A stretch of DNA of 64,000 bases, from contig NZ_PJMQ01000001.1 in assembly GCF_002846335.1 (NCBI RefSeq), positions 3,534,001-3,598,000 of the forward strand. The letters are read 5' to 3'. The notes below the pieces were generated by a model. The model saw only the letters and a program-made list of their open reading frames with translations. It did not search any database and was not told the DNA's origin. Numbering within the stretch: the first letter of the stretch is position 1; the number at the start of each line of letters is the position of its first letter. This document shows positions 6,376 through 41,335 of this stretch, piece by piece. The DNA comes from Janthinobacterium sp. 61 (GTDB lineage Bacteria > Pseudomonadota > Gammaproteobacteria > Burkholderiales > Burkholderiaceae_D). The position numbers were made by a program, and so were the translations under genes.

Positions 6376-7578
6376 CTAGACGCGTTCCAGCACCAGCGCA
6401 ATCCCCTGTCCTACGCCGATGCACATGGTGCAAAGCGCATAGCGTCCACCCGTGCGGTGTAGCTGGTTGACGGCCGTCATCGCCAGGCGCGCACCGGACG
6501 CGCCCAGCGGATGGCCCAGGGCAATGGCGCCGCCGTTCGGGTTGACGCGCGGGTCGTCGTCGCGCAAGCCCAACTGGCGCAGCACGGCCAGGCCCTGCGC
6601 GGCAAACGCTTCGTTCAGTTCGATGACGTCGAAGTCGGCCAGGCTCAAGCCCGTCATGGCCAGCACTTTCAGGGTGGCGGGCGCGGGGCCGATGCCCATG
6701 ATGCGCGGCGCCACGCCGGCCGTCGCCATGGCCACGACGCGCGCGCGCGGCGTCAGGCCAAAGCGGGCCGCGTTCGCCTCGTCGGCCAGCAGCAGCGCCG
6801 CCGCGCCATCGTTGACGCCGGACGCGTTGCCGGCAGTAATCGTGCCGTCGGCGCGCACGACGGGTTTCAATTTGGCCAGGGTGTCCAGGGTGGTGGCGCG
6901 CGGATGCTCGTCGCGGGCGACAACGATGGGATCGCCCTTCTTTTGCGCGATGCTGACGGGGCAGATTTCGCTGTCGAACACGCCCGCCTGCTGCGCCGCC
7001 AGCGCTTTCACCTGGCTGGCCAGGGCGAACGCATCCTGGTCAGCGCGGCTGATGCAAAACTCGACGGCCACGTTTTCCGCCGTTTCCGGCATCGAATCGA
7101 CGCCATACTGGGCCTTCATCAAGGGGTTGATGAAGCGCCAGCCGATGGTCGTGTCTTCCATTTTCATGCCGCGCGAAAAAGCGCTGTCCGCCTTGCCCAT
7201 GACAAACGGTGCGCGGCTCATGCTTTCCACGCCGCCGGCGATCAGCAAGCCCGCTTCGCCGCTCTTGATGAAGCGTGCCGCGCTGCCGATGGCGTCCAGG
7301 CCCGAACCGCACAAACGGTTCAGGGTGGCGCCCGGCACGCTGTCGGGCAAGCCGGCCAGCAAGGCGGCCATGCGCGCCACGTTGCGGTTGTCCTCGCCAG
7401 CCTGGTTGGCGCAGCCGTACAGCACGTCGGTGACGGCCGTCCAGTCCACGTTCGGGTTGCGCGCCATCAAGGCACGGATGGGCACGGCGCCCAGGTCGTC
7501 GGCGCGCACGCCGGCGAGTCCACCGCCATAGCGGCCGAATGGGGTGCGCTGCGCGTCGCAGATATAAGCGTGGGTCAT
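6376..7578 (-). CDS. pcaF: 3-oxoadipyl-CoA thiolase
   Basis: This 400-residue thiolase cleaves beta-ketoadipyl-CoA to succinyl-CoA and acetyl-CoA, the last step of protocatechuate/catechol catabolism. The nucleophilic Cys is C90 in NRLCGSGLDA. The second active-site elements are GHPLGASGAR (about 356) and CTMCIGVGQG (about 386). The N-terminal AYICDAQRTPFGRYGG is typical of PcaF rather than PhaA or FadA. A GGAGGAAAG ribosome site precedes ATG 7578. It is the third gene after pcaI and pcaJ, 41 bases downstream of pcaJ, which supports the specific assignment. Confidence 0.92.
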   Translation of the reverse strand: MTHAYICDAQRTPFGRYGGGLAGVRADDLGAVPIRALMARNPNVDWTAVTDVLYGCANQAGEDNRNVARMAALLAGLPDSVPGATLNRLCGSGLDAIGSAARFIKSGEAGLLIAGGVESMSRAPFVMGKADSAFSRGMKMEDTTIGWRFINPLMKAQYGVDSMPETAENVAVEFCISRADQDAFALASQVKALAAQQAGVFDSEICPVSIAQKKGDPIVVARDEHPRATTLDTLAKLKPVVRADGTITAGNASGVNDGAAALLLADEANAARFGLTPRARVVAMATAGVAPRIMGIGPAPATLKVLAMTGLSLADFDVIELNEAFAAQGLAVLRQLGLRDDDPRVNPNGGAIALGHPLGASGARLAMTAVNQLHRTGGRYALCTMCIGVGQGIALVLERV

Positions 7579-7619: not shown

Positions 7620-8261
7620 TTAGCGGGCGTCCCTCAGCGGCACGGCCGTCAAGGCTTGCAGCTGCGCAAAGCTCAAGCCATCGACCAGCTCGACGACGGC
7701 GGCGCCGGCGTGGGACAGGTCAATCACGGCCAGGTCGCTGTAGATGCGGCTGACGCAGGCTATGCCCGTCAGCGGATACGAGCACGCCTGCACCAGCTTG
7801 CTTTCACCCGTCTTGGTCAGCAAATCCATCATGACCCAGGTCTTTTTCGCGCCGATGGCCAGGTCCATGGCCCCGCCCACGGCGGGAATGGCATCTCGGT
7901 CACCCGTGTGCCAGTTGGCCAGGTCGCCCGTGGCAGAGACTTGAAAAGCGCCCAGTACGCAGATGTCCAGGTGGCCACCGCGCATCATGGCGAAGCTGTC
8001 GGCATGGTGGAAATAACTGCCGCCCGCCAGCAGGGTGACAGGCTGTTTGCCCGCGTTGATCAGGTCATAGTCTTCCTCTCCAGGCGCGGGTGCCGGGCCC
8101 ATGCCGATCACGCCGTTTTCGCTGTGCAGGATGATGTCCGCGCCAGCCGGCAAGTGATTCGCCACCAGCGTCGGCAAGCCGATGCCCAGGTTCACCACGG
8201 CACCCTCATGGATGTCGGCCGCCACGCGGGCCGCCATGTGATCTCGATTCCATTTATTCAT
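7620..8261 (-). CDS. pcaJ: 3-oxoadipate CoA-transferase, beta subunit
   Basis: This 213-residue class I CoA-transferase subunit carries the catalytic glutamate E49 in HSENGVIGMG, which forms the glutamyl-CoA thioester. With PcaI it moves CoA from succinyl-CoA to 3-oxoadipate, making the substrate of PcaF. GAGGAAT precedes its ATG, 11 bases after the pcaI stop, so the two subunits are made from one message. The succinyl-CoA:acetoacetate transferase ScoAB is a close alternative by sequence; the adjacent pcaF and IclR regulator favour Pca. Confidence 0.9.
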   Translation of the reverse strand: MNKWNRDHMAARVAADIHEGAVVNLGIGLPTLVANHLPAGADIILHSENGVIGMGPAPAPGEEDYDLINAGKQPVTLLAGGSYFHHADSFAMMRGGHLDICVLGAFQVSATGDLANWHTGDRDAIPAVGGAMDLAIGAKKTWVMMDLLTKTGESKLVQACSYPLTGIACVSRIYSDLAVIDLSHAGAAVVELVDGLSFAQLQALTAVPLRDAR

Positions 8262-8272
8262 TGTGATATTCC

Positions 8273-8971
8273 TCAGGCAGCTTTGAAGCCGGCAGGGCCG
8301 GTGGCCGTGCGCGGCACTTGCACGATGCGCTGCACGAACAGGCCCGGCGTGATGACGTGCTCGGGATCGATGCTGCCCAGTTCGGCAACCTCGTGCACGG
8401 AGGCAATGCTCACTTTCGCGGCCATGGCCATGACGGGGCCGAAGTTGCGCGCCGTCTTGCGGTAGGTCAGATTGCCCCAGCGGTCGCCCTGCTCCGCCTT
8501 GATCAGCGCGAAATCGGCGTGGATGGGCGACTCGAATACATACATGCGCCCGTCGATCTCGCGCGTTTCCTTGCCCTTGGCCAGATCCGTGCCATAGCCC
8601 GTGGGGGTGAAGAAGCCGCCAATGCCGGCGCCGGCGGCGCGGATACGCTCGGCAAGGTTGCCCTGGGGCACCAGTTCCAGTTCCAGCTTGCCCGCGCGGT
8701 ACAGCGCGTCAAAGACGTGGGAATCGGCCTGGCGGGGGAAGGAGCAGATGATCTTGCGCACCTGCCCGTTTTTCAGCAGGGCGGCCAGGCCCGTATCGCC
8801 ATTGCCCGCGTTGTTGTTGACGATGACGAGGTCGCGGGCGCCCTGGGCGATCAAGCCGTCGATCAGCTCGGCCGGTTGGCCCGCGCCGCCGAAGCCGCCA
8901 ATCATGACGGTGGCGCCATCGTGGATATCGGCCAGCGCCTCAAGGACGCTGGAACGCAGTTTGTCGATCAT
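8273..8971 (-). CDS. pcaI: 3-oxoadipate CoA-transferase, alpha subunit
   Basis: This 232-residue alpha subunit of the heteromeric class I CoA-transferase has the CoA-binding glycine-rich loop GGFGGAGQP at residues 25-33 and the NNNAGNGDTGLA segment of the family. It is the first gene of the pcaI-pcaJ-pcaF unit and starts with an AGGAGA ribosome site. The promoter region facing the divergent IclR gene contains the palindrome at 9003-9025, so expression is probably controlled by that regulator in response to 3-oxoadipate or a related acid. Confidence 0.9.
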   Translation of the reverse strand: MIDKLRSSVLEALADIHDGATVMIGGFGGAGQPAELIDGLIAQGARDLVIVNNNAGNGDTGLAALLKNGQVRKIICSFPRQADSHVFDALYRAGKLELELVPQGNLAERIRAAGAGIGGFFTPTGYGTDLAKGKETREIDGRMYVFESPIHADFALIKAEQGDRWGNLTYRKTARNFGPVMAMAAKVSIASVHEVAELGSIDPEHVITPGLFVQRIVQVPRTATGPAGFKAA

Positions 8972-34128: not shown

Positions 34129-34968
34129 ATGAAAACTTACTTTATCGGCGATCTGCAAGGCTGCCATGCACAAACCGTCGAATTGATCGAACGGATCCAG
34201 GCAGCGGCAGATGGCCCGTACCGGCTCCTGTTCGCGGGCGACCTGATCAATCGCGGTCCGGCATCGCTGGCCACCCTGCGCCACGTGCATGCGCTGGCGC
34301 AGCAGGGCCTGGCCGACAGCGTCCTGGGTAACCACGACTTGCACTTGCTGGCGGTGGCCAACGGCATCCGCCCGGAGCATGCGTCCGACACGCTGGCCGA
34401 GATCCTCGATGCGCCCGACCGCGAGCAATTGCTCGCCTGGCTGCGCCACCGTCCGCTCGCCTTGCAGCACCAGGGTCATGTACTCGTGCATGCAGGCCTG
34501 CTGCCACAATGGAGCGCAACCCAGGCTTTGTCCCTGAGCGAGGAAGTGTCGACCATGCTACGCAGCGACGGTTGGGTGGCGTTCCTGCGCACCATGTACG
34601 GCAACGAACCGGCCGCCTGGCGCGACGACCTGCAGGGCGCCGACCGGCTGCGCTGCATCGTCAACGCCATGACGCGTTTGCGCTTTTGCACGCCGGACGG
34701 CGTGATGGACTTCAAAATGAAGGAGAGCGGCAGCGCGCCGCCGGGCTCCGGCCTGCTGCCGTGGTTCGACGTGCCTGGCCGGCGCAGCGCTGGCGACACC
34801 GTCGTCTTCGGTCACTGGTCGGCGCTGGGACTGCAGCTGCACCCGCACCTGATCGGCCTCGATAGCGGCTGCGTCTGGGGCGGAAAACTGTCGGCCGTGT
34901 GCCTGGAAGACCGCTCGCTGCTGCAGGTGGACTGTCCCGCCTTCCTGCAGCACAGTGGCAAACAGTAA
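34129..34968 (+). CDS. apaH: Bis(5'-nucleosyl)-tetraphosphatase, symmetrical
   Basis: This 279-residue PPP-family metallophosphatase hydrolyses Ap4A to two ADP and can decap NpnN-capped RNA. The three metal motifs are GDLQGC (residues 7-12), GDLINRGP and GNHDLHLL, followed by FGHWSALG near the C terminus. ATG 34129 was chosen, with a TATAAT -10 box 33 bases upstream; an in-frame ATG at 34099 lies directly at that box and is unlikely to be translated. It is encoded alone between the H-NS gene and the AraC regulator. Confidence 0.94.
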
Positions 34969-35057
34969 GCTGCATCGCGCGCATATGCTTAGTCGAAATC
35001 GGTCGTTTGCCTTGCCGCGCGTGGCCCGTATGATGCAGCTTTTGCCTGTCCCATCCC

Positions 35058-35978
35058 ATGCACCCTGATACCGACAGACTGGCACGCTGGCTGCTGGGCA
35101 GCCTGGAACTTGACACCGCCGTCCTGCATGTAGGCCAGTACTGCGGCCGCTGGCGCGCCTCCACGGCGGGCCGGGAACTGGGCAGCTTTCACCTGGTGCT
35201 CGATGGCCATTGCTATTTGCACCTAGATGGGGCGGCACCGATTGCGCTCGGCCCGCGCGATGGCGTCTTCCTGCTGCGCGACTTGCCCCACTTCCTCAGT
35301 CCCCACAGCGATCCGCTGCAGGCTGTGAGCGCACAAGCCATGCTGCCGCTGCAGGCGTCCACGGACCAGCCGGCGACGGCGCTGGCGTGCGGCTTCTTTC
35401 AATTTCGCGGCGCCCTCTCCGCACTGATCGTCGACTCCTTCCCGCCGTACCTGCTGATACACGGCGACGCGCCCGCCTTCAGTGCCGCCGCCGCGCTGTT
35501 CGACCTGATCCTGGCAGAGGCCGGCGGTGACCCGGAACAGCCATCGCCACTCATCGCGCGCCTGGTCGAACTGCTGTTCTTCTACCTGATCCGCCATGTG
35601 GCGCAGGGTGAGCAAGTGGCGGCCGGCCTGCTGTCGCTGCTGCACCAGCCCGCATTTTCGCCGCTGCTCGAACGCATGCTCGACGCCCCCGCCGCCGACT
35701 GGTCGATTGAAAACATGGCCAAAGCCGCCTGCATGTCGCGCGCCAGCTTCTGCAAGCATTTCGCCAGCGCCAGCGGCCACTCGCCGGCCCAGTTCCTGCT
35801 CGTGCTGCGCATGAAGATCGCCGCGCGGCGCCTGCACGATGGCGTCTCCGTCGAACGCGCAGCCGAACTGGTAGGCTACCGCTCGCACGCCGCCTTTACG
35901 CGCGCCTTCAAGCGGGTCACGGGCGAGCAACCGGGCGCCTACCGGCGCGACCAGCGCCAGCGTCAACTGGCAAGCTGA
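35058..35978 (+). CDS. AraC-family transcriptional regulator
   Basis: This 306-residue regulator has an N-terminal cupin-like effector domain (Cupin_6 type, with LVLDGHCYLHLDGAAPIALGPRDGVFLLRDLPHFL) and a C-terminal double HTH (about 205-300; MAKAACMSRASFCKHFASASGHSPAQFLLVLRM and AELVGYRSHAAFTRAFKRVTGEQPGAYRRD). Regulators of this subgroup often control oxidoreductase or detoxification genes. It is followed on the same strand, after 141 bases that contain a good promoter, by the CMD-ACAD-ABC unit. I infer that it controls that unit. Confidence 0.9.
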   Translation: MHPDTDRLARWLLGSLELDTAVLHVGQYCGRWRASTAGRELGSFHLVLDGHCYLHLDGAAPIALGPRDGVFLLRDLPHFLSPHSDPLQAVSAQAMLPLQASTDQPATALACGFFQFRGALSALIVDSFPPYLLIHGDAPAFSAAAALFDLILAEAGGDPEQPSPLIARLVELLFFYLIRHVAQGEQVAAGLLSLLHQPAFSPLLERMLDAPAADWSIENMAKAACMSRASFCKHFASASGHSPAQFLLVLRMKIAARRLHDGVSVERAAELVGYRSHAAFTRAFKRVTGEQPGAYRRDQRQRQLAS

Positions 35979-36006
35979 GGTTCAGCTGAGGTTCATCCTG
36001 ACCTCA
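35973..36006 (+). repeat. 11-base tandem duplication and hairpin at the AraC-gene stop
   Basis: AGCTGAGGTTC occurs twice without gap (35973-35983 and 35984-35994); the first copy contains the regulator's TGA stop. TGAGGT (35987-35992) pairs with ACCTCA (36001-36006), forming a weak hairpin with an 8-base loop. Confidence 0.6.
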
Positions 36007-36058
36007 AGGTTTGCGCAATCAAAGACGAACGAGCACAAAAGGACGACGCTAACGTCTG

Positions 36059-36085
36059 TTGCACGCTCGGCATGGCCGATATAAT
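36059..36085 (+). promoter_or_regulatory. Candidate sigma-70 promoter of the CMD-ACAD-ABC unit
   Basis: TTGCAC (36059-36064) and a perfect TATAAT (36080-36085) are separated by 15 bases, and the first ATG follows 34 bases later at 36120. The spacer is a little shorter than ideal, which is compatible with an activator-dependent promoter. A GACG-CTAA-CGTC inverted repeat lies just upstream of the -35 box. Confidence 0.6.
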
Positions 36086-36119
36086 GGCTGGGTGACTTAC
36101 TAACTTAGCAAGGTACCCC

Positions 36120-36674
36120 ATGTCCCGTCTGACGCTGCACACTCTCGATACCGCCCCGCCCGATAGCCGCCCCTTCGTGGAAAAGGCCATCGCCAACAAT
36201 GGCTACCTGCCCAACCTGATCGGCGTGCTGGCCAATGCCCCATTGGCGCTGGAAACCTATCTGACCGTATCGGGCATCAATGCGCGCGCCAGCCTGAGTT
36301 TGATGGAACGCGAAGTGGTGCAAATCACCGCCGCGCGCATCCACGGCTGCGATTTCTGCATCGCCGGCCATAGCGCCATCTCGCTGAAAAAAGCGGCACA
36401 GACGCCTGATACGGTGCGCGCCCTGCAGCATGGCCAGCCGACCGGCGACGCCAAGCTGGACGCCGTCGCCGCCTTCGCCACGGCCGTCATCGCCACGCGC
36501 GGCGCCGTCGCCGACGTAGCCTATCAAGCCTTCCTGGCAGCAGGCTACAACGAACAGCAGGCGCTGGAAGTCGTGCTGGGCATCAGCCTGGCCACCCTGT
36601 GCAATTTCTCCAACAGCCTGGCCGGCACGCCCGTCAATCCGCAATTGACGCCCTACCTGCCTGGCGCCGTCTGA
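36120..36674 (+). CDS. Carboxymuconolactone decarboxylase/AhpD-fold protein
   Basis: This 184-residue helical protein belongs to the CMD/AhpD family. The redox motif C77-x2-C80-x3-H84 (CDFCIAGH) is complete, as in alkylhydroperoxidase AhpD, so a peroxidase or thiol-redox activity is likely rather than lactone decarboxylation. It is the first gene of a tight unit; the acyl-CoA-dehydrogenase-like gene starts one base after its stop. It might remove peroxide produced by the flavoprotein downstream; this is inference. Confidence 0.87.
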   Translation: MSRLTLHTLDTAPPDSRPFVEKAIANNGYLPNLIGVLANAPLALETYLTVSGINARASLSLMEREVVQITAARIHGCDFCIAGHSAISLKKAAQTPDTVRALQHGQPTGDAKLDAVAAFATAVIATRGAVADVAYQAFLAAGYNEQQALEVVLGISLATLCNFSNSLAGTPVNPQLTPYLPGAV

Positions 36675-36675
36675 G

Positions 36676-37761
36676 ATGGCGAACCTCAATCATTGGCTGC
36701 ACATGCATGCCGACCAGCTCGACCAGTCATCGGCACTGGCTGACACCGTCTTGCCGGCATTGGCCGGCGACCAACTGCTGGCCATCGGCGTGCCACAAGA
36801 GCACGGCGGCGCGGGCGGCGACGTACGTGACGCCATCGACGCCATCGCCAACGTGGCCGAGCAATCGGTAACGGCGGCCTTTGTCTTCTGGGGCCAGCGC
36901 TGCTTCATCGAGTTCCTGCTGCAAAGCGAGAACCGCGCGCTGGCAGAACGCCGCTTGCCAGGCCTGCTGGCGGGCACGCAGGCGGGCGCCAGCGGTTTGT
37001 CGAACGCCATGAAATTCTTGTCCGGCATAGAGCAGCTGCAAATCACGGGCGCACGCCAGGATGACGGCTTGCTGGTCGATGGCGGCCTGGCGTGGGTGAC
37101 AAATTTACGCAAAGCGGGCTTTGTCGCGGCGGCCGCCGTGGCGCCCAACGATGGCGCGCCCCCCGTCATCGTCGCCTTTGACAGCAGCACGGCAGGCGTC
37201 AAGCGCAGCGACGATCTGGACCTGATCGCCCTGCGCGGCAGCAATACCGCCTCCGTCAAGCTGACGCAGGTGCATATTCCCGCAGCGGACATCATCAGCG
37301 AGAATGCGCCAACCTGGCTGCCGCAAGTGCGCCCATCGTTCCTCGGCATGCAGTGCGGCCTGTCCATCGGCCTGGCGCGCGCCAGCCTGGCGCAGGCGGC
37401 GCAGATCTCGGCCGGCTCGCGCAACCAGCTCACGCCGCGCATCGAAGCGCTGCAAGCGACCCTGGAGGCGGCTGTTGCCACCCTGCTGGCCGGCGTGCAC
37501 GATGGCCGCTTCAAGACGCAGGCGCCGGCCATGTTCCGCCTGCGCATACAGCTGGCTGAATTGCTGCAGCAAGCCCTGATGCTGGAACTGCAGGCCATGG
37601 GCGGACGCGCCTACCTGAACGCGGAGCAGCAGGGCTTTGCGCGCCGCTGGCGCGAGTCGTCATTCATCCCCATCGTCACCCCCAGCCTGACGCAATTGCA
37701 GGCAGCCTTGCAGCTGTTCGACAGCCAGCAGGCGGCAACAGCGGCGGGAGCGCCCGCATGA
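36676..37761 (+). CDS. Acyl-CoA-dehydrogenase-fold flavoprotein
   Basis: This 361-residue protein has the three-part ACAD fold: an N-terminal helical domain (LLAIGVPQEHGGAGGDVRDAI), a middle beta domain (GLSNAMKFLSG...VTNLRKAGFVA) and a C-terminal helical bundle (about 225-350). The C-terminal catalytic Glu region of true acyl-CoA dehydrogenases is not recognisable, and the end reads RRWRESSFIPIVTPS. That leaves open an FMN/FAD-dependent monooxygenase (DszC/SfnC-like) or another oxidase. Its stop overlaps the start of the ABC ATPase gene (ATGA), so its activity probably concerns the transported compound. Confidence 0.78.
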   Translation: MANLNHWLHMHADQLDQSSALADTVLPALAGDQLLAIGVPQEHGGAGGDVRDAIDAIANVAEQSVTAAFVFWGQRCFIEFLLQSENRALAERRLPGLLAGTQAGASGLSNAMKFLSGIEQLQITGARQDDGLLVDGGLAWVTNLRKAGFVAAAAVAPNDGAPPVIVAFDSSTAGVKRSDDLDLIALRGSNTASVKLTQVHIPAADIISENAPTWLPQVRPSFLGMQCGLSIGLARASLAQAAQISAGSRNQLTPRIEALQATLEAAVATLLAGVHDGRFKTQAPAMFRLRIQLAELLQQALMLELQAMGGRAYLNAEQQGFARRWRESSFIPIVTPSLTQLQAALQLFDSQQAATAAGAPA

Positions 37762-38567
37762 CGGCAGCAGTGGAAGCACAAGACTGGGCGCTGCAGGCGC
37801 AGGACCTCAGCTACGCCTACCCGGGTACGGCGCCCGTTTTCCAGCAGGTCTCGCTGGGCGTGCGCAAGCGCGAAATTGTCTGCCTGCTGGGCGGCAGCGG
37901 CTGCGGCAAATCAAGCCTGCTGCGCGTGCTGGCCGGCTTGCAGCCACCATCGACGGGCGCGATCCAGTTTCTCGACGCACCGATGCGCGAACCGGACCCG
38001 CGCAGCGCCCTGGTGTTCCAGCAGGCGAGCCTCTTGCCCTGGCTGAACGTCACGGGTAATGCCGGCTTTGGCCTGGACTTCAAGCACCAGCCGCAGCTGA
38101 CGCGCGAAGCGCACCAGGCGCGCGTGGCGCAAGCCATCGAAGCTGTGGGCCTGAAGGGCCGCGAAAAGCTGTATCCGTCCGCCCTGTCGGGCGGCATGGC
38201 GCAGCGCGTGGCCTTGGCCCGCGCACTGGCGCGCGAACCGGAACTGCTGTTCGCCGACGAGCCGTTTTCCGCGCTCGACGCGATCACCCGCGCCGAGATG
38301 CAGTCGCTACTGGTCGACGTGGTGCACCGCTGGCACACGGCCGTTCTGCTGGTCACGCATGATATCGACGAAGCCATCCTGGTGGCCGACCGTATTTTGC
38401 TCATGGGTGGCAAACCGGGCAACATCGTGCGCGAATGGCCCGTTGCCATCGCCCAGCCCCGCATCGGCCACAGCGCCGACGTCATCGCCCTCAAGATGGA
38501 CATCCTCGACGCCCTGCAAGCGCTGCAAAAGCAGGACCAGCAGCCCGCCGTCGCCCCCTTTAATTGA
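37758..38567 (+). CDS. ABC importer ATPase, NitT/TauT type
   Basis: This 269-residue ATPase has Walker A GGSGCGKSS (about 45-53), the Q-loop LVFQQASLLPWLNV, signature LSGGMAQR (about 144), Walker B LLFADEPFSALD and an H-loop LLVTHDIDEA. It groups by motif with SsuB/TauB/NrtD, importers of sulfonates, taurine, nitrate or small aromatic acids. It is overlapped by the flavoprotein gene upstream and followed by the binding-protein and permease genes. Substrate is not deducible from the ATPase. Confidence 0.92.
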   Translation: MTAAVEAQDWALQAQDLSYAYPGTAPVFQQVSLGVRKREIVCLLGGSGCGKSSLLRVLAGLQPPSTGAIQFLDAPMREPDPRSALVFQQASLLPWLNVTGNAGFGLDFKHQPQLTREAHQARVAQAIEAVGLKGREKLYPSALSGGMAQRVALARALAREPELLFADEPFSALDAITRAEMQSLLVDVVHRWHTAVLLVTHDIDEAILVADRILLMGGKPGNIVREWPVAIAQPRIGHSADVIALKMDILDALQALQKQDQQPAVAPFN

Positions 38568-38580
38568 CCGGAGCACTTCC

Positions 38581-39825
38581 ATGTCCTTCCAAGAAAATAA
38601 CAAACCCCTGCACATCTGCGCCTCCTCCGATTGCGACTGCGGCCTGACGCGGCGCGACTTCCTGCGCATGTCGGCCCTGGCCACGGCCAGCGTCGCTTCG
38701 CCCCTGCTGTTCGCCGGCGACGCCATGGCCCAGCAAGGCCCGAAAGGCGACGACCAGCCCGTGAAAATCGGCTACCTGCCGATCACCGACGCCACCCCGC
38801 TGCTCGTCGCCCACGCCCGCAAGCTGTTCGAGGCGGAAGGCTTGCAGGCGGAAACGCCGCGCCTGTTCCGCAGCTGGGCGCAGATCATCGAAGCTTTCGT
38901 GGCTGGCCAGGTCAACGTCATCCATTTACTGTCGCCCGCCACCCTGTGGGTGCGCTACGGCGCCAAGTTCCCGGCGAAAGTCGTCGCGTGGAACCACGTC
39001 AACGGCTCCGCGCTGACGGTGGCCAACGAGATCAACAAGGTCTCCGACCTGGGCGGACGCACGGTCGCCATCCCGTTCTGGTACTCGATCCACAACATCC
39101 TGCTGCAGCAAATCCTGTCCTCGAATGGTTTGACGCCGGTCACCCGCGCGCGCAACGCAGCCATCAAATCGAATGAAGTCAACCTGATCGTGCTGGCACC
39201 GGCCGAAATGGTCTCCGCCCTGGCCAGCAAATCCATCGCCGGCTACATCGTGGCCGAACCGTTCAATGCGGCGGCGGAAAACGCCGGCATCGGCAAGATA
39301 CTGCGCTTCTCGGGCGACGTGTGGAAAAACCATGCATGCTGCGTCACTTTCCTGTCCGAGCGCGACATCAACACGCGTCCGGAATGGGCGCAAAAAGTCA
39401 CTAACGCCATCGTCAAGGCGCAGCTGTGGACGCGCTCGAACCAGGTCGACACGGCCAAGCTGCTGTCGAACGTGGGCGAACACCGCTACACGCCGCATCC
39501 GCTGCAGGTGCTGACCAAGGTGTTGGCCACGACCGATTACGCCGGCTATGAGAAGCAGGGCCTGATCGTGCACAAGAACTGGCAGCAGCGCCGCATCGAC
39601 TTCCAGCCGTATCCGTTTGCCTCGTACACGGAAGAACTGGTGCGCGCCATCGGCCGCACCAAGGTCGAAGGCGATACGCGCTTCCTGGCCAACCTCGATC
39701 CGAAGTTCGCCGCGCGCGACCTGGTCGATGACCGCTTCGTGCGCAAGGCCATCACGGCAGTCGGCGGCCCGGCCGCCTTCGGCTTGCCGGCCAACCTGCT
39801 GCGCAGCGAAACCGTGGCGGTCTGA
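38581..39825 (+). CDS. ABC importer substrate-binding protein, Tat-exported
   Basis: This 414-residue periplasmic binding protein of the NrtA/SsuA class has a Tat signal, TRRDFLRMSALATAS, with Arg24-Arg25 and predicted cleavage after AMA at residue 50. The mature part opens with VKIGYLPITDATPLLVAHARKLFEAEGL, the ligand-domain start of the NitT/TauT family. Ahead of the twin arginine stand three cysteines at residues 13, 18 and 20 (HICASSDCDCG), which is not usual in these signals. GGAG precedes ATG 38581; the frame extends back into the ATPase gene but is not coding there. Tat export suggests folding or cofactor binding before export. Confidence 0.88.
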   Translation: MSFQENNKPLHICASSDCDCGLTRRDFLRMSALATASVASPLLFAGDAMAQQGPKGDDQPVKIGYLPITDATPLLVAHARKLFEAEGLQAETPRLFRSWAQIIEAFVAGQVNVIHLLSPATLWVRYGAKFPAKVVAWNHVNGSALTVANEINKVSDLGGRTVAIPFWYSIHNILLQQILSSNGLTPVTRARNAAIKSNEVNLIVLAPAEMVSALASKSIAGYIVAEPFNAAAENAGIGKILRFSGDVWKNHACCVTFLSERDINTRPEWAQKVTNAIVKAQLWTRSNQVDTAKLLSNVGEHRYTPHPLQVLTKVLATTDYAGYEKQGLIVHKNWQQRRIDFQPYPFASYTEELVRAIGRTKVEGDTRFLANLDPKFAARDLVDDRFVRKAITAVGGPAAFGLPANLLRSETVAV

Positions 39826-39827
39826 CG

Positions 39828-40592
39828 ATGGCAAGCAAGTTGTTCACGAAGTTTGGCCTGCCCCTGGTGGGGCTGGCCTGTGCCTTGCTGCTGTGGTCAA
39901 TGGGCGTGACTGCACTGGAGAAATCCACGCCCATCGCGACCGCCTTTGCGCCACTGCCCACGGCGCTGGCGTTCAAGGAAATGCTGGGCGGTTCGGATAT
40001 CTGGCTGCACGTGGTACTGAGCCTGCAAAGGGTGGCCGTGGGCCTGGGGCTGGCCATCGTCATCGGTGTGCCGCTGGGCGTGCTGGTGGCCATGTCGAAA
40101 AGCTTTTCCGGCGCGGCCATGCCGCTGTTCCAGCTGCTGCGCATGATTTCGCCGCTGTCGTGGATGCCGATTGCCGTGATGGTGCTGGGCGTCGGTGACG
40201 CTCCCGTGTATTTCCTGCTGGCGTTTGCGGCCGTCTGGCCGATTCTGCTCAATACGGCGGCCGGCGTGGCGCGCCTCGATCCGAACTGGCTGCTGCTGGC
40301 GCGCAGCCTGTCTGCCACGCGCAGCGAAATCGTCTTCAAGGTGATTTTGCCGGGCATCACGGCCGATATTCTGACGGGCGTGCGCCTGGCCATCGGCATC
40401 ATCTGGATCGTGCTGGTGCCAGCGGAAATGCTGGGCGTGTCGGCCGGCCTCGGCTACTTCATCCTCGACACGCGCGACCGCCTGGCGTATTCGGAGCTGA
40501 TGGCTGCCATCGTGCTGATCGGGATTCTGGGTTTTATCCTCGACTATCTGGCCCGCGCCGCGCACGCGCGCTGGCTGCATGTGAAGAACTAA
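39828..40592 (+). CDS. ABC importer permease, NitT/TauT type
   Basis: This 254-residue inner-membrane protein has about six membrane helices and the BPD_transp_1 fold. The EAA-type coupling loop is ARSLSATRSEIVFKVILPGITADILTG, which contacts the ATPase. It begins three bases after the binding-protein stop. It completes the importer with the two preceding genes. Its stop overlaps by four bases (CTAA) the stop of the convergent acyltransferase gene. Confidence 0.9.
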   Translation: MASKLFTKFGLPLVGLACALLLWSMGVTALEKSTPIATAFAPLPTALAFKEMLGGSDIWLHVVLSLQRVAVGLGLAIVIGVPLGVLVAMSKSFSGAAMPLFQLLRMISPLSWMPIAVMVLGVGDAPVYFLLAFAAVWPILLNTAAGVARLDPNWLLLARSLSATRSEIVFKVILPGITADILTGVRLAIGIIWIVLVPAEMLGVSAGLGYFILDTRDRLAYSELMAAIVLIGILGFILDYLARAAHARWLHVKN

Positions 40593-41335
40593 GCGGCCTT
40601 TTCCAGCGGCAGCGCGGCGGCAACCGCCGCCTGCGTTGCCGCAGCCAGCTCACGCCGGTGTGCACCGGCCGTGAATTCCGGCGCCAGGCAGGTCAGGCGC
40701 GCCGTGATCGGCGGGCCGCTCAAAATCGCCACCATGCTTTGCGCAAAGCTCATCTCGCCAATGAAGTCGACGGCGTGATGCAAAGCCCCCTTGTCATCCA
40801 CATACACGAGCGCGAACGGCTGCACCGGCACTTGCGCATCGATGGCCGCCTCGAACAAGTTAGCGTGAAACGGCAAAATCTGCCCTTGCGCGGCGGTCGT
40901 GCCTTCGGGGAAGAACGCAATGCGCTCGCCCGCCGTCAATTTATCGACCAGGCCCTGAAAGATCAGACGCAGGTCCCGCTTGCTGCCGCGTGAAATGAAG
41001 ATGGTGCCGGCGCGCCCCGCCAGCCAGCCAAGAATCGGCCAGGCGCGGATTTCCGCCTTGGCGACGAAACGGCAGGGATGGACGGCATTGATGACGAAGA
41101 TGTCGAGCCACGAAACGTGGTTCGCCACCACCATCGCATGGTCGAGTGCCGGCACGCTGTCGGCCGGAAGCACCACATGCACGCCGCAGATATCGAGCAA
41201 CTGCGTCGACCAGCGGCGGATGCGCCGGTTGCGCCCTTCCAGGTCCAGCCAGGGAAACAGCACGGCGCTCTTGGCCATGCCGCAGCTCAGGTGAATGGCG
41301 ATGCGCGCGAGGCGGTAGGTAAGCAGAAGTTTCAA
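40589..41335 (-). CDS. PlsC-type 1-acylglycerol-3-phosphate acyltransferase
   Basis: This 248-residue acyltransferase has the HX4D motif NHVSWLD and FPEGTT, plus an N-terminal amphipathic/hydrophobic segment. It is a second PlsC-family member in the window; OlsA-type or other lyso-lipid acceptors are possible. The start in this frame is a TTG at 41335. It lies downstream of pyrC' on the same strand, with a REP pair between them. It overlaps the ABC permease gene tail to tail. Confidence 0.85.
   Translation of the reverse strand: MKLLLTYRLARIAIHLSCGMAKSAVLFPWLDLEGRNRRIRRWSTQLLDICGVHVVLPADSVPALDHAMVVANHVSWLDIFVINAVHPCRFVAKAEIRAWPILGWLAGRAGTIFISRGSKRDLRLIFQGLVDKLTAGERIAFFPEGTTAAQGQILPFHANLFEAAIDAQVPVQPFALVYVDDKGALHHAVDFIGEMSFAQSMVAILSGPPITARLTCLAPEFTAGAHRRELAAATQAAVAAALPLEKAA

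Follow-up and report, generated by a model that had tools for sequence, protein, structure and literature searches.

Bacterial sulfur-acquisition systems such as SsuEADCB, TauABCD and sfn combine a NitT/TauT-type importer with an oxidative enzyme that acts on a sulfur source, while cynABDS serves cyanate uptake together with a cyanase. For thiocyanate (SCN-), the simplest anion with both sulfur and CN, the closest described systems are the scnABC thiocyanate hydrolase operon of Thiobacillus, in the carbonyl sulfide (COS) pathway, and the thiocyanate dehydrogenase (TcDH) cluster of Thioalkalivibrio, in the cyanate pathway. Here we examine a stretch of 64,000 nucleotides from Janthinobacterium sp. 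61 (contig NZ_PJMQ01000001.1; hereafter the window), in a 6.0-Mb genome whose nearest named relatives, by the flavoprotein discussed below, are Janthinobacterium. The window holds a unit of five genes: a carboxymuconolactone decarboxylase (CMD)/AhpD-fold protein, a flavoprotein with the acyl-CoA dehydrogenase (ACAD) fold, and the ATPase, substrate-binding protein (SBP) and permease of an ATP-binding cassette (ABC) importer. We propose, at a probability of roughly 0.6, that this unit scavenges thiocyanate by import and flavin-dependent breakdown to cyanate and sulfane sulfur.

Homologous SBP, permease and ATPase genes occur in the scn operons of the four genomes that we examined, but the scnABC enzyme is a nitrile-hydratase relative and two permease genes follow it, whereas the window pairs an ACAD-fold flavoprotein with a CMD/AhpD protein. 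The TcDH cluster turns thiocyanate into cyanate and sulfur, as proposed here, and ABC transporter genes adjoin it (passages of PMC5328954 and PMC5744179); TcDH is a copper enzyme with a twin-arginine translocation signal that serves energy metabolism, whereas the window has a flavoprotein for which nutrient supply is proposed. Compared with the ssu, tau and sfn systems, the window's unit is without SsuD, TauD and a flavin reductase, its scores fall under the respective cut-offs, and its SBP carries an HxCC motif. An NrtA-like SBP with HxCC is common to the unit and cynABDS, and sister ACAD-OsmC genes stand beside or inside such clusters, but neither the unit nor its genome has a cyanase. A search of open-licence papers turned up no account of the module, in agreement with the original prediction, which knew of no named system with this exact composition.

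The SBP, permease and ATPase would import SCN- as a small anion, as the gene neighbours of their relatives suggest. The flavoprotein, having apparently lost the acyl-CoA dehydrogenase base, would oxidise cytoplasmic SCN-, most likely to cyanate (OCN-) and sulfane-level sulfur, judging by the partner genes of its sister form. The CMD/AhpD protein, or OsmC in the sister form, would either bind the oxidised sulfur in persulfide form or remove peroxide. Sulfur would then go on to assimilation and, where a cyanase is present, cyanate would be converted to ammonia and CO2. Rubredoxin and its reductase, present in the sister form, hint at a supply of electrons, the fold at their removal, and both an oxygenase and a dehydrogenase/oxidase version of the flavoprotein may be envisaged. 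We favour thiocyanate because one substrate would cover the small-anion SBP, the alternative association with a hydrolase, the cyanase, the sulfane-sulfur enzymes and the sulfur contexts described below.

The five-gene unit and its flavoprotein

The CMD (36120..36674), flavoprotein (36676..37761), ATPase (37758..38567), SBP (38581..39825) and permease (39828..40592) genes are separated by 1, -4, 13 and 2 bases, just as the original prediction had it, the ATPase gene overlapping that of the flavoprotein by 4 bases. The SBP start was taken as the ATG at 38581, 13 bases past the ATPase; the listed open reading frame (ORF) opens at 38359. Upstream lies the predicted AraC-family regulator (Cupin_6 and HTH_18; 35058..35978), a probable regulator of the unit, and all six genes (35058-40592) are on the + strand. 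The idea of one promoter for the five genes found no support: a sigma-70 scan of 34900-40800 had no match in the 141-base gap before the CMD gene, and its single match (35007-35034), upstream of the AraC gene, is equalled in number by shuffled sequences.

A scan of genome contigs recovered 393 flavoprotein relatives, and our counts of named loci refer to the best 80 of these (L numbers denote loci in general). The order CMD-ACAD-ATPase-SBP-permease is complete in 74 of the 80, which bears out the co-occurrence of the five families and places the arrangement far from chance. The other six comprise four loci that end at contig edges (L091, L103, L116, L117), one broken locus (L097) and one lone ACAD (L106). 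Hosts include Janthinobacterium, Massilia, Duganella, Herbaspirillum, Pseudomonas, Zoogloea, Azoarcus, Variovorax, Methyloversatilis and others, and annotated plasmids extend the range to Agrobacterium, Bartonella, Roseomonas, Deinococcus and Variovorax. In 72 of the 80 loci (49 on the same strand, 23 divergent) an AraC match falls no more than 3 kb from the ACAD gene; the other eight have none in that interval. Of 195 genomes searched in the window's family, 26 gave an ACAD match (E<=1e-20), the best match being at least 60% identical in 19 and about 30% identical in the other seven; a search in the class of genome G873 gave only 2/289. The order AraC-CMD-ACAD-ATPase-SBP holds in 18/18 loci of close relatives (the window's own excluded, each locus ending within the SBP gene). 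The seven of these loci that lie outside the genus show 76-85% identity in CMD and 80-84% in SBP, against 60-65% in ACAD. Neighbour genes were called by codon scoring, with approximate starts, longest-ORF calling being unsuited to these GC-rich genomes, and chosen ORFs among the 188 unlabelled neighbours listed were scanned.

The flavoprotein (Pfam Acyl-CoA_dh_N) is modelled by AlphaFold with an acyl-CoA dehydrogenase fold (pLDDT 94.9), its best matches being isovaleryl-CoA and other acyl-CoA dehydrogenases. A retained catalytic Glu would have spoken against the original prediction. At the usual place this residue is absent: all 35 aligned flavoproteins, the window's included, carry Thr335-Pro336 (codons 37678..37683), which aligns to the catalytic Glu-Gly-Thr of an acyl-CoA dehydrogenase from the same genome (L003). 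The replacement of the catalytic Glu motif by Thr335-Pro336 sets the flavoprotein, on the evidence of these alignments, apart from normal acyl-CoA dehydrogenases. In a tree of 100 flavoproteins, the window's protein falls in a clade of 85 rows (clade A), and the other 15 rows, about 30% identical to it, form a separate group.

The partner protein matches the Pfam CMD family (40.6 bits, cut-off 23) and ahpD_dom (29.2 bits, cut-off 27.8), falls under the cut-off of TIGR01926 (55.4 against 81.8), and matches PDB 3lvy and 6e8l. Its CxxC-x3-H site (C77, C80, H84; codons 36348..36371) is invariant, together with E65, in 18/18 aligned CMD proteins including the window's, so that the predicted CxxC-H AhpD-fold assignment holds. 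OsmC and AhpD proteins share thiol-peroxidase chemistry, and the predicted peroxide clean-up fits as one reading of this partner. An importer of the window's type stands beside OsmC-ACAD genes in L184-L186 (SBP 46-52% identical to the window's) and on plasmids L194-L197, so that CMD and OsmC may be equivalent in function.

Several variants and neighbours deserve mention. In L097 (Massilia) the importer is missing after a partial ATPase (8068-8379), and in L073 (J. lividum PAMC 25724) the CMD gene is in two frames (6446-6996), through a frameshift or a sequencing error. Next to a second clade-A flavoprotein, L043 (G324 C26), are a cytochrome c protein and a large ORF, and neither CMD nor importer accompanies it. 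One family with genomes of 1.8-2.8 Mb (L056, L057, L215-L218) has CMD-ACAD-rubredoxin-like genes and no importer genes in the stretch read. In the window itself, a minus-strand ORF (40589-41335), acyltransferase-like when judged by eye, is convergent with the permease gene and overlaps its stop by 4 bases.

The importer, its relatives and the sulfur contexts

The predicted NitT/TauT-type importer was recognised in all three components: the SBP matches NMT1_2 (158 bits; NrtA/CmpA-like), the permease BPD_transp_1 (78.3 bits) and the ATPase ABC_tran. More specific NCBIfam models stay under their cut-offs (ntrB 151.7 against 209; taurine ATPase 202.7 against 357; SsuA family 96.2 against 163.5). 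A match of SBP, ATPase and permease to the models of Sao, which we take to be the selenocysteine-assisted organometal system, was likewise under cut-off throughout, and that candidate was rejected.

The relatives of the SBP carry more information. A search of 399 genomes of the order (E<=1e-40, at most four candidates scored per genome) matched 14 genomes; in ten, the window's own among them, the SBP gene stands beside CMD and ACAD, and in four (L238-L241) it belongs to a thiocyanate hydrolase operon. These operons run through three hydrolase genes, then ATPase, SBP and two permeases, a layout that agrees with that given in passages of PMC5328954 for Thiobacillus, where scnABC is followed by a NitT/TauT importer. 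The hydrolase gamma subunit matches Pfam NHase_alpha in all four and TIGR03887 in the two tested (399 bits in L239 and 391 in L240, cut-off 291). In L239, the sole locus checked further, NHase_beta halves were found in the other two subunits, beta and gamma match PDB 2dd4, and sulfur-carrier and related genes (DsrE, TusA, SQR-like) are present. A cyanase gene lies upstream of the operon in L239-L241 and was not seen in L238; no ACAD match was found in the 18 kb read at each of the four. The TIGR03887 (scnC) model had no match in the window's own genome, yet control genomes were also silent with this model, which did match L239 and L240.

In a tree of 45 SBPs, a selection from those at hand, the four scn-linked proteins group with seven OsmC-ACAD-linked ones (11 rows, support 86/98), inside a 35-row clade that also holds the window's SBP (support 86/87). 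Outside this clade fall an eight-row cyanate-type clade, several members of which stand beside cyanase, and two SsuA types. The motif W-x2-H-[AP]-C-C is present in 43/43 non-SsuA proteins of the tree and in 0/2 SsuA types; the window's copy is H251-A-C253-C254 (39331..39342). CmpC and nitrate relatives align G or K residues here. Since scn-linked, ACAD-linked and cyanate-type SBPs have W-x2-H-x-C-C in common, the motif is possibly a marker of pseudohalide-binding proteins. The nearest PDB entry by phmmer, 3un6, presumably from Staphylococcus aureus, also has CC at this position; a link to it was considered and dropped, literature searches having given no useful lead on function. A twin-arginine type signal (TRRDFLR; 38647..38667) occurs in the window's SBP and in some, not all, relatives in the tree set.

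Several loci bear on sulfur metabolism more broadly. Plasmid 1 of Synechococcus elongatus (pANL) carries, in this order, cysK, gamma-glutamyltransferase, DUF4242, an ACAD gene (41% identical), ATPase, SBP and permease, and also has srpI, a cysteine desulfurase, a serine acetyltransferase and a second cysK. Portions of PMC8049743 list srpI among many genes raised by sulfur starvation, on a plasmid rich in sulfur-related genes, and portions of PMC9239245 describe a sulfur-metabolism region on pANL. An SrpI-type encapsulin gene adjoins ACAD in L185. Genes for a luciferase-like monooxygenase, importer components, a pyridoxal phosphate enzyme of Cys/Met metabolism and MetN-/MetQ-like proteins precede the lone clade-A ACAD of Xylophilus (L106), and SsuA/Tau-like importers stand beside the module in Herbaspirillum L085 and L102. 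The flanks of many other clade-A loci are uninformative.

These contexts would also suit the scavenging of organosulfur compounds (sulfonates, sulfinates or thioethers), with the flavoprotein as a flavin (FMNH2/FAD) monooxygenase of the same kind as SfnB, MsuC or DszC, a reading that we regard as the best of the alternatives and still unlikely. SfnB is indeed the best NCBIfam match of the flavoprotein, and the SBP and ATPase resemble the SsuA and TauB families. However, the scores are far under curated cut-offs, at 49.5 bits for SfnB (cut-off 430.9) and 21.9 for DszC (cut-off 850), and those for SsuA and TauB are likewise below theirs; the DszC/SfnC-type link put forward originally was therefore not upheld, though a sulfonate may still be the substrate. 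The fold matches listed are mostly dehydrogenases; no DszC or MsuC is among the 50 listed, which in itself excludes nothing. Nor would sulfonates explain the cyanase near sister forms, or the thiocyanate hydrolase near SBP relatives, and both SsuA types compared are without the HxCC motif.

Sister forms, cyanase and the weight against thiocyanate

Among the flavoproteins about 30% identical to the window's, L047, L053 and L054 keep the CMD-ACAD-ATPase-SBP-permease order. Others have OsmC in place of CMD and mixtures of rubredoxin, a rubredoxin-NorW-like reductase, DUF302, a GAF/sigma-54 activator and TetR. Sixty fetched loci were classed by hand as 44 OsmC-type, 15 CMD-type and one DUF4242, and cyanase, rhodanese and dioxygenase query proteins were drawn from this same set. 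Within the fetched stretches of the OsmC-type loci, we found cyanase in 9/44, a two-domain rhodanese in 17/44 (identity to the queries 60% or more) and persulfide dioxygenase-like genes in 2/44; the CMD-type loci had none of the three at 60% or more, and a single weak rhodanese match (29%, L174). Among known proteins, the rhodanese resembles thiosulfate and mercaptopyruvate sulfurtransferases. The metallo-beta-lactamase of L173, whose counterpart in L178 is 60% identical, aligns with the dioxygenase half of Blh, under the cut-off of the two-domain model, and with solved structures 4ysk and 4efz, less strongly with ETHE1. In L184, cyanase and rhodanese stand in one run with OsmC, ACAD and the three importer genes (ATPase-SBP-permease) of window type. 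A recurrent set of sigma-54 activator (GAF), OsmC, ACAD-like gene, DUF302 and mostly rubredoxin was also seen (L048, L049, L055, L060, L207, L208, L212-L214), with an NrtA-like SBP gene nearby in most.

By coordinates, cyanase lies within 12 kb of ACAD in 25/38 OsmC-type loci, a count entered by hand for loci in which the partner gene was seen. It omits G008, G082, G722, G400, G427, G474, G553, the second copy of G114 and others, as well as the lone ACAD of G324 (C26) and the Janthinobacterium outside the five searched for cyanase; of the omitted loci, G082 has cyanase about 5 kb from ACAD and G008 on another contig. At the genome level, cyanase is present in 44/68 genomes with the flavoprotein and 15/49 without it, the latter having been picked from no-match lists with differing E-value limits and matched for neither size nor lineage.

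This clustering would also suit cyanate or cyanide handling, for nitrogen supply or detoxification, in which the flavoprotein oxidises cyanide to cyanate or works beside a cyanate importer and cyanase. The frequent cyanase and rhodanese of OsmC-type loci speak for it, as does the HxCC motif in a second SBP clade, of cyanate type. However, HCN crosses membranes and needs no importer, and the sulfur contexts, persulfide dioxygenase-like genes and thiocyanate hydrolase operons are left unexplained. Cyanase is, moreover, near none of the CMD-type loci and missing from the window's genome (both below), and we judge this reading somewhat less probable again than organosulfur scavenging. That the unit serves ordinary acyl-CoA metabolism, its importer being unrelated, is highly improbable: the fold favours it, but the usual catalytic Glu is absent, an invariant Phe222 stands where we take isovaleryl-CoA dehydrogenase to have its Glu (placed by hand), and the gene orders show no other acyl-CoA enzyme in the conserved unit.

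Several observations weigh against thiocyanate as well. Cyanase was found within 12 kb in 0/32 CMD-type loci, on the same hand-entered basis, and in 8/27 CMD-only genomes, about as often as in the 15/49 module-free ones (7/26 without G114, which was counted as CMD-only with its second copy unread). No cyanase (PF02560) was found in the window's own genome, in a search that matched the control Synechococcus, or in 5/5 other Janthinobacterium searched. The cyanase and rhodanese links belong to flavoproteins that share only about 30% identity with the window's. Cyanase alone proves little, because it also sits beside COS-pathway genes; passages of PMC5328954 indicate that a cyanase beside a COS-pathway enzyme is no proof of a cyanate route. 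The window's SBP shares only 43-47% identity with the scn-linked SBPs, which are closer to the OsmC-type ones (54-57%), and the tree does not settle how the window's group branches against theirs, nor all of the branch order inside the 35-row clade; SBP specificity could thus have shifted between them. The sulfur-starvation data for pANL, as far as the cited portions go, concern srpI and the plasmid, not the module's own genes. Finally, the operon has no flavin reductase.

Thiocyanate scavenging still agrees with much of what had been proposed. Import of a small compound followed by flavin-dependent oxidation is compatible with a small sulfur compound and a non-canonical ACAD-fold enzyme, and the neighbours point to thiocyanate among the "thio-compounds" then listed. 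A nitrile or ester, also listed, was set aside, with no supporting gene among the neighbours identified.

A possible third route for thiocyanate

Whether the family as a whole constitutes a third thiocyanate route, apart from the hydrolase and the copper TcDH, is an evenly balanced question. Such a route would combine the Thr-Pro type of ACAD flavoprotein, a dedicated HxCC pseudohalide importer and a dithiol partner that can be exchanged (AhpD/CMD or OsmC, possibly also DUF4242). It would occur in Pseudomonadota, in cyanobacteria and in one Deinococcus, and would supply sulfur, nitrogen or both to ordinary heterotrophs. Annotated records name the products only as acyl-CoA dehydrogenase, carboxymuconolactone decarboxylase and OsmC family protein. 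Thiocyanate is also a mining pollutant (PMC5744179). If our proposal is true, the unit would offer candidate genes for the missing step in thiocyanate use by ordinary bacteria and give a function to the flavoprotein and its AhpD/OsmC partners, and W-x2-H-x-C-C may tell cyanate and thiocyanate binding proteins from those for nitrate and bicarbonate.

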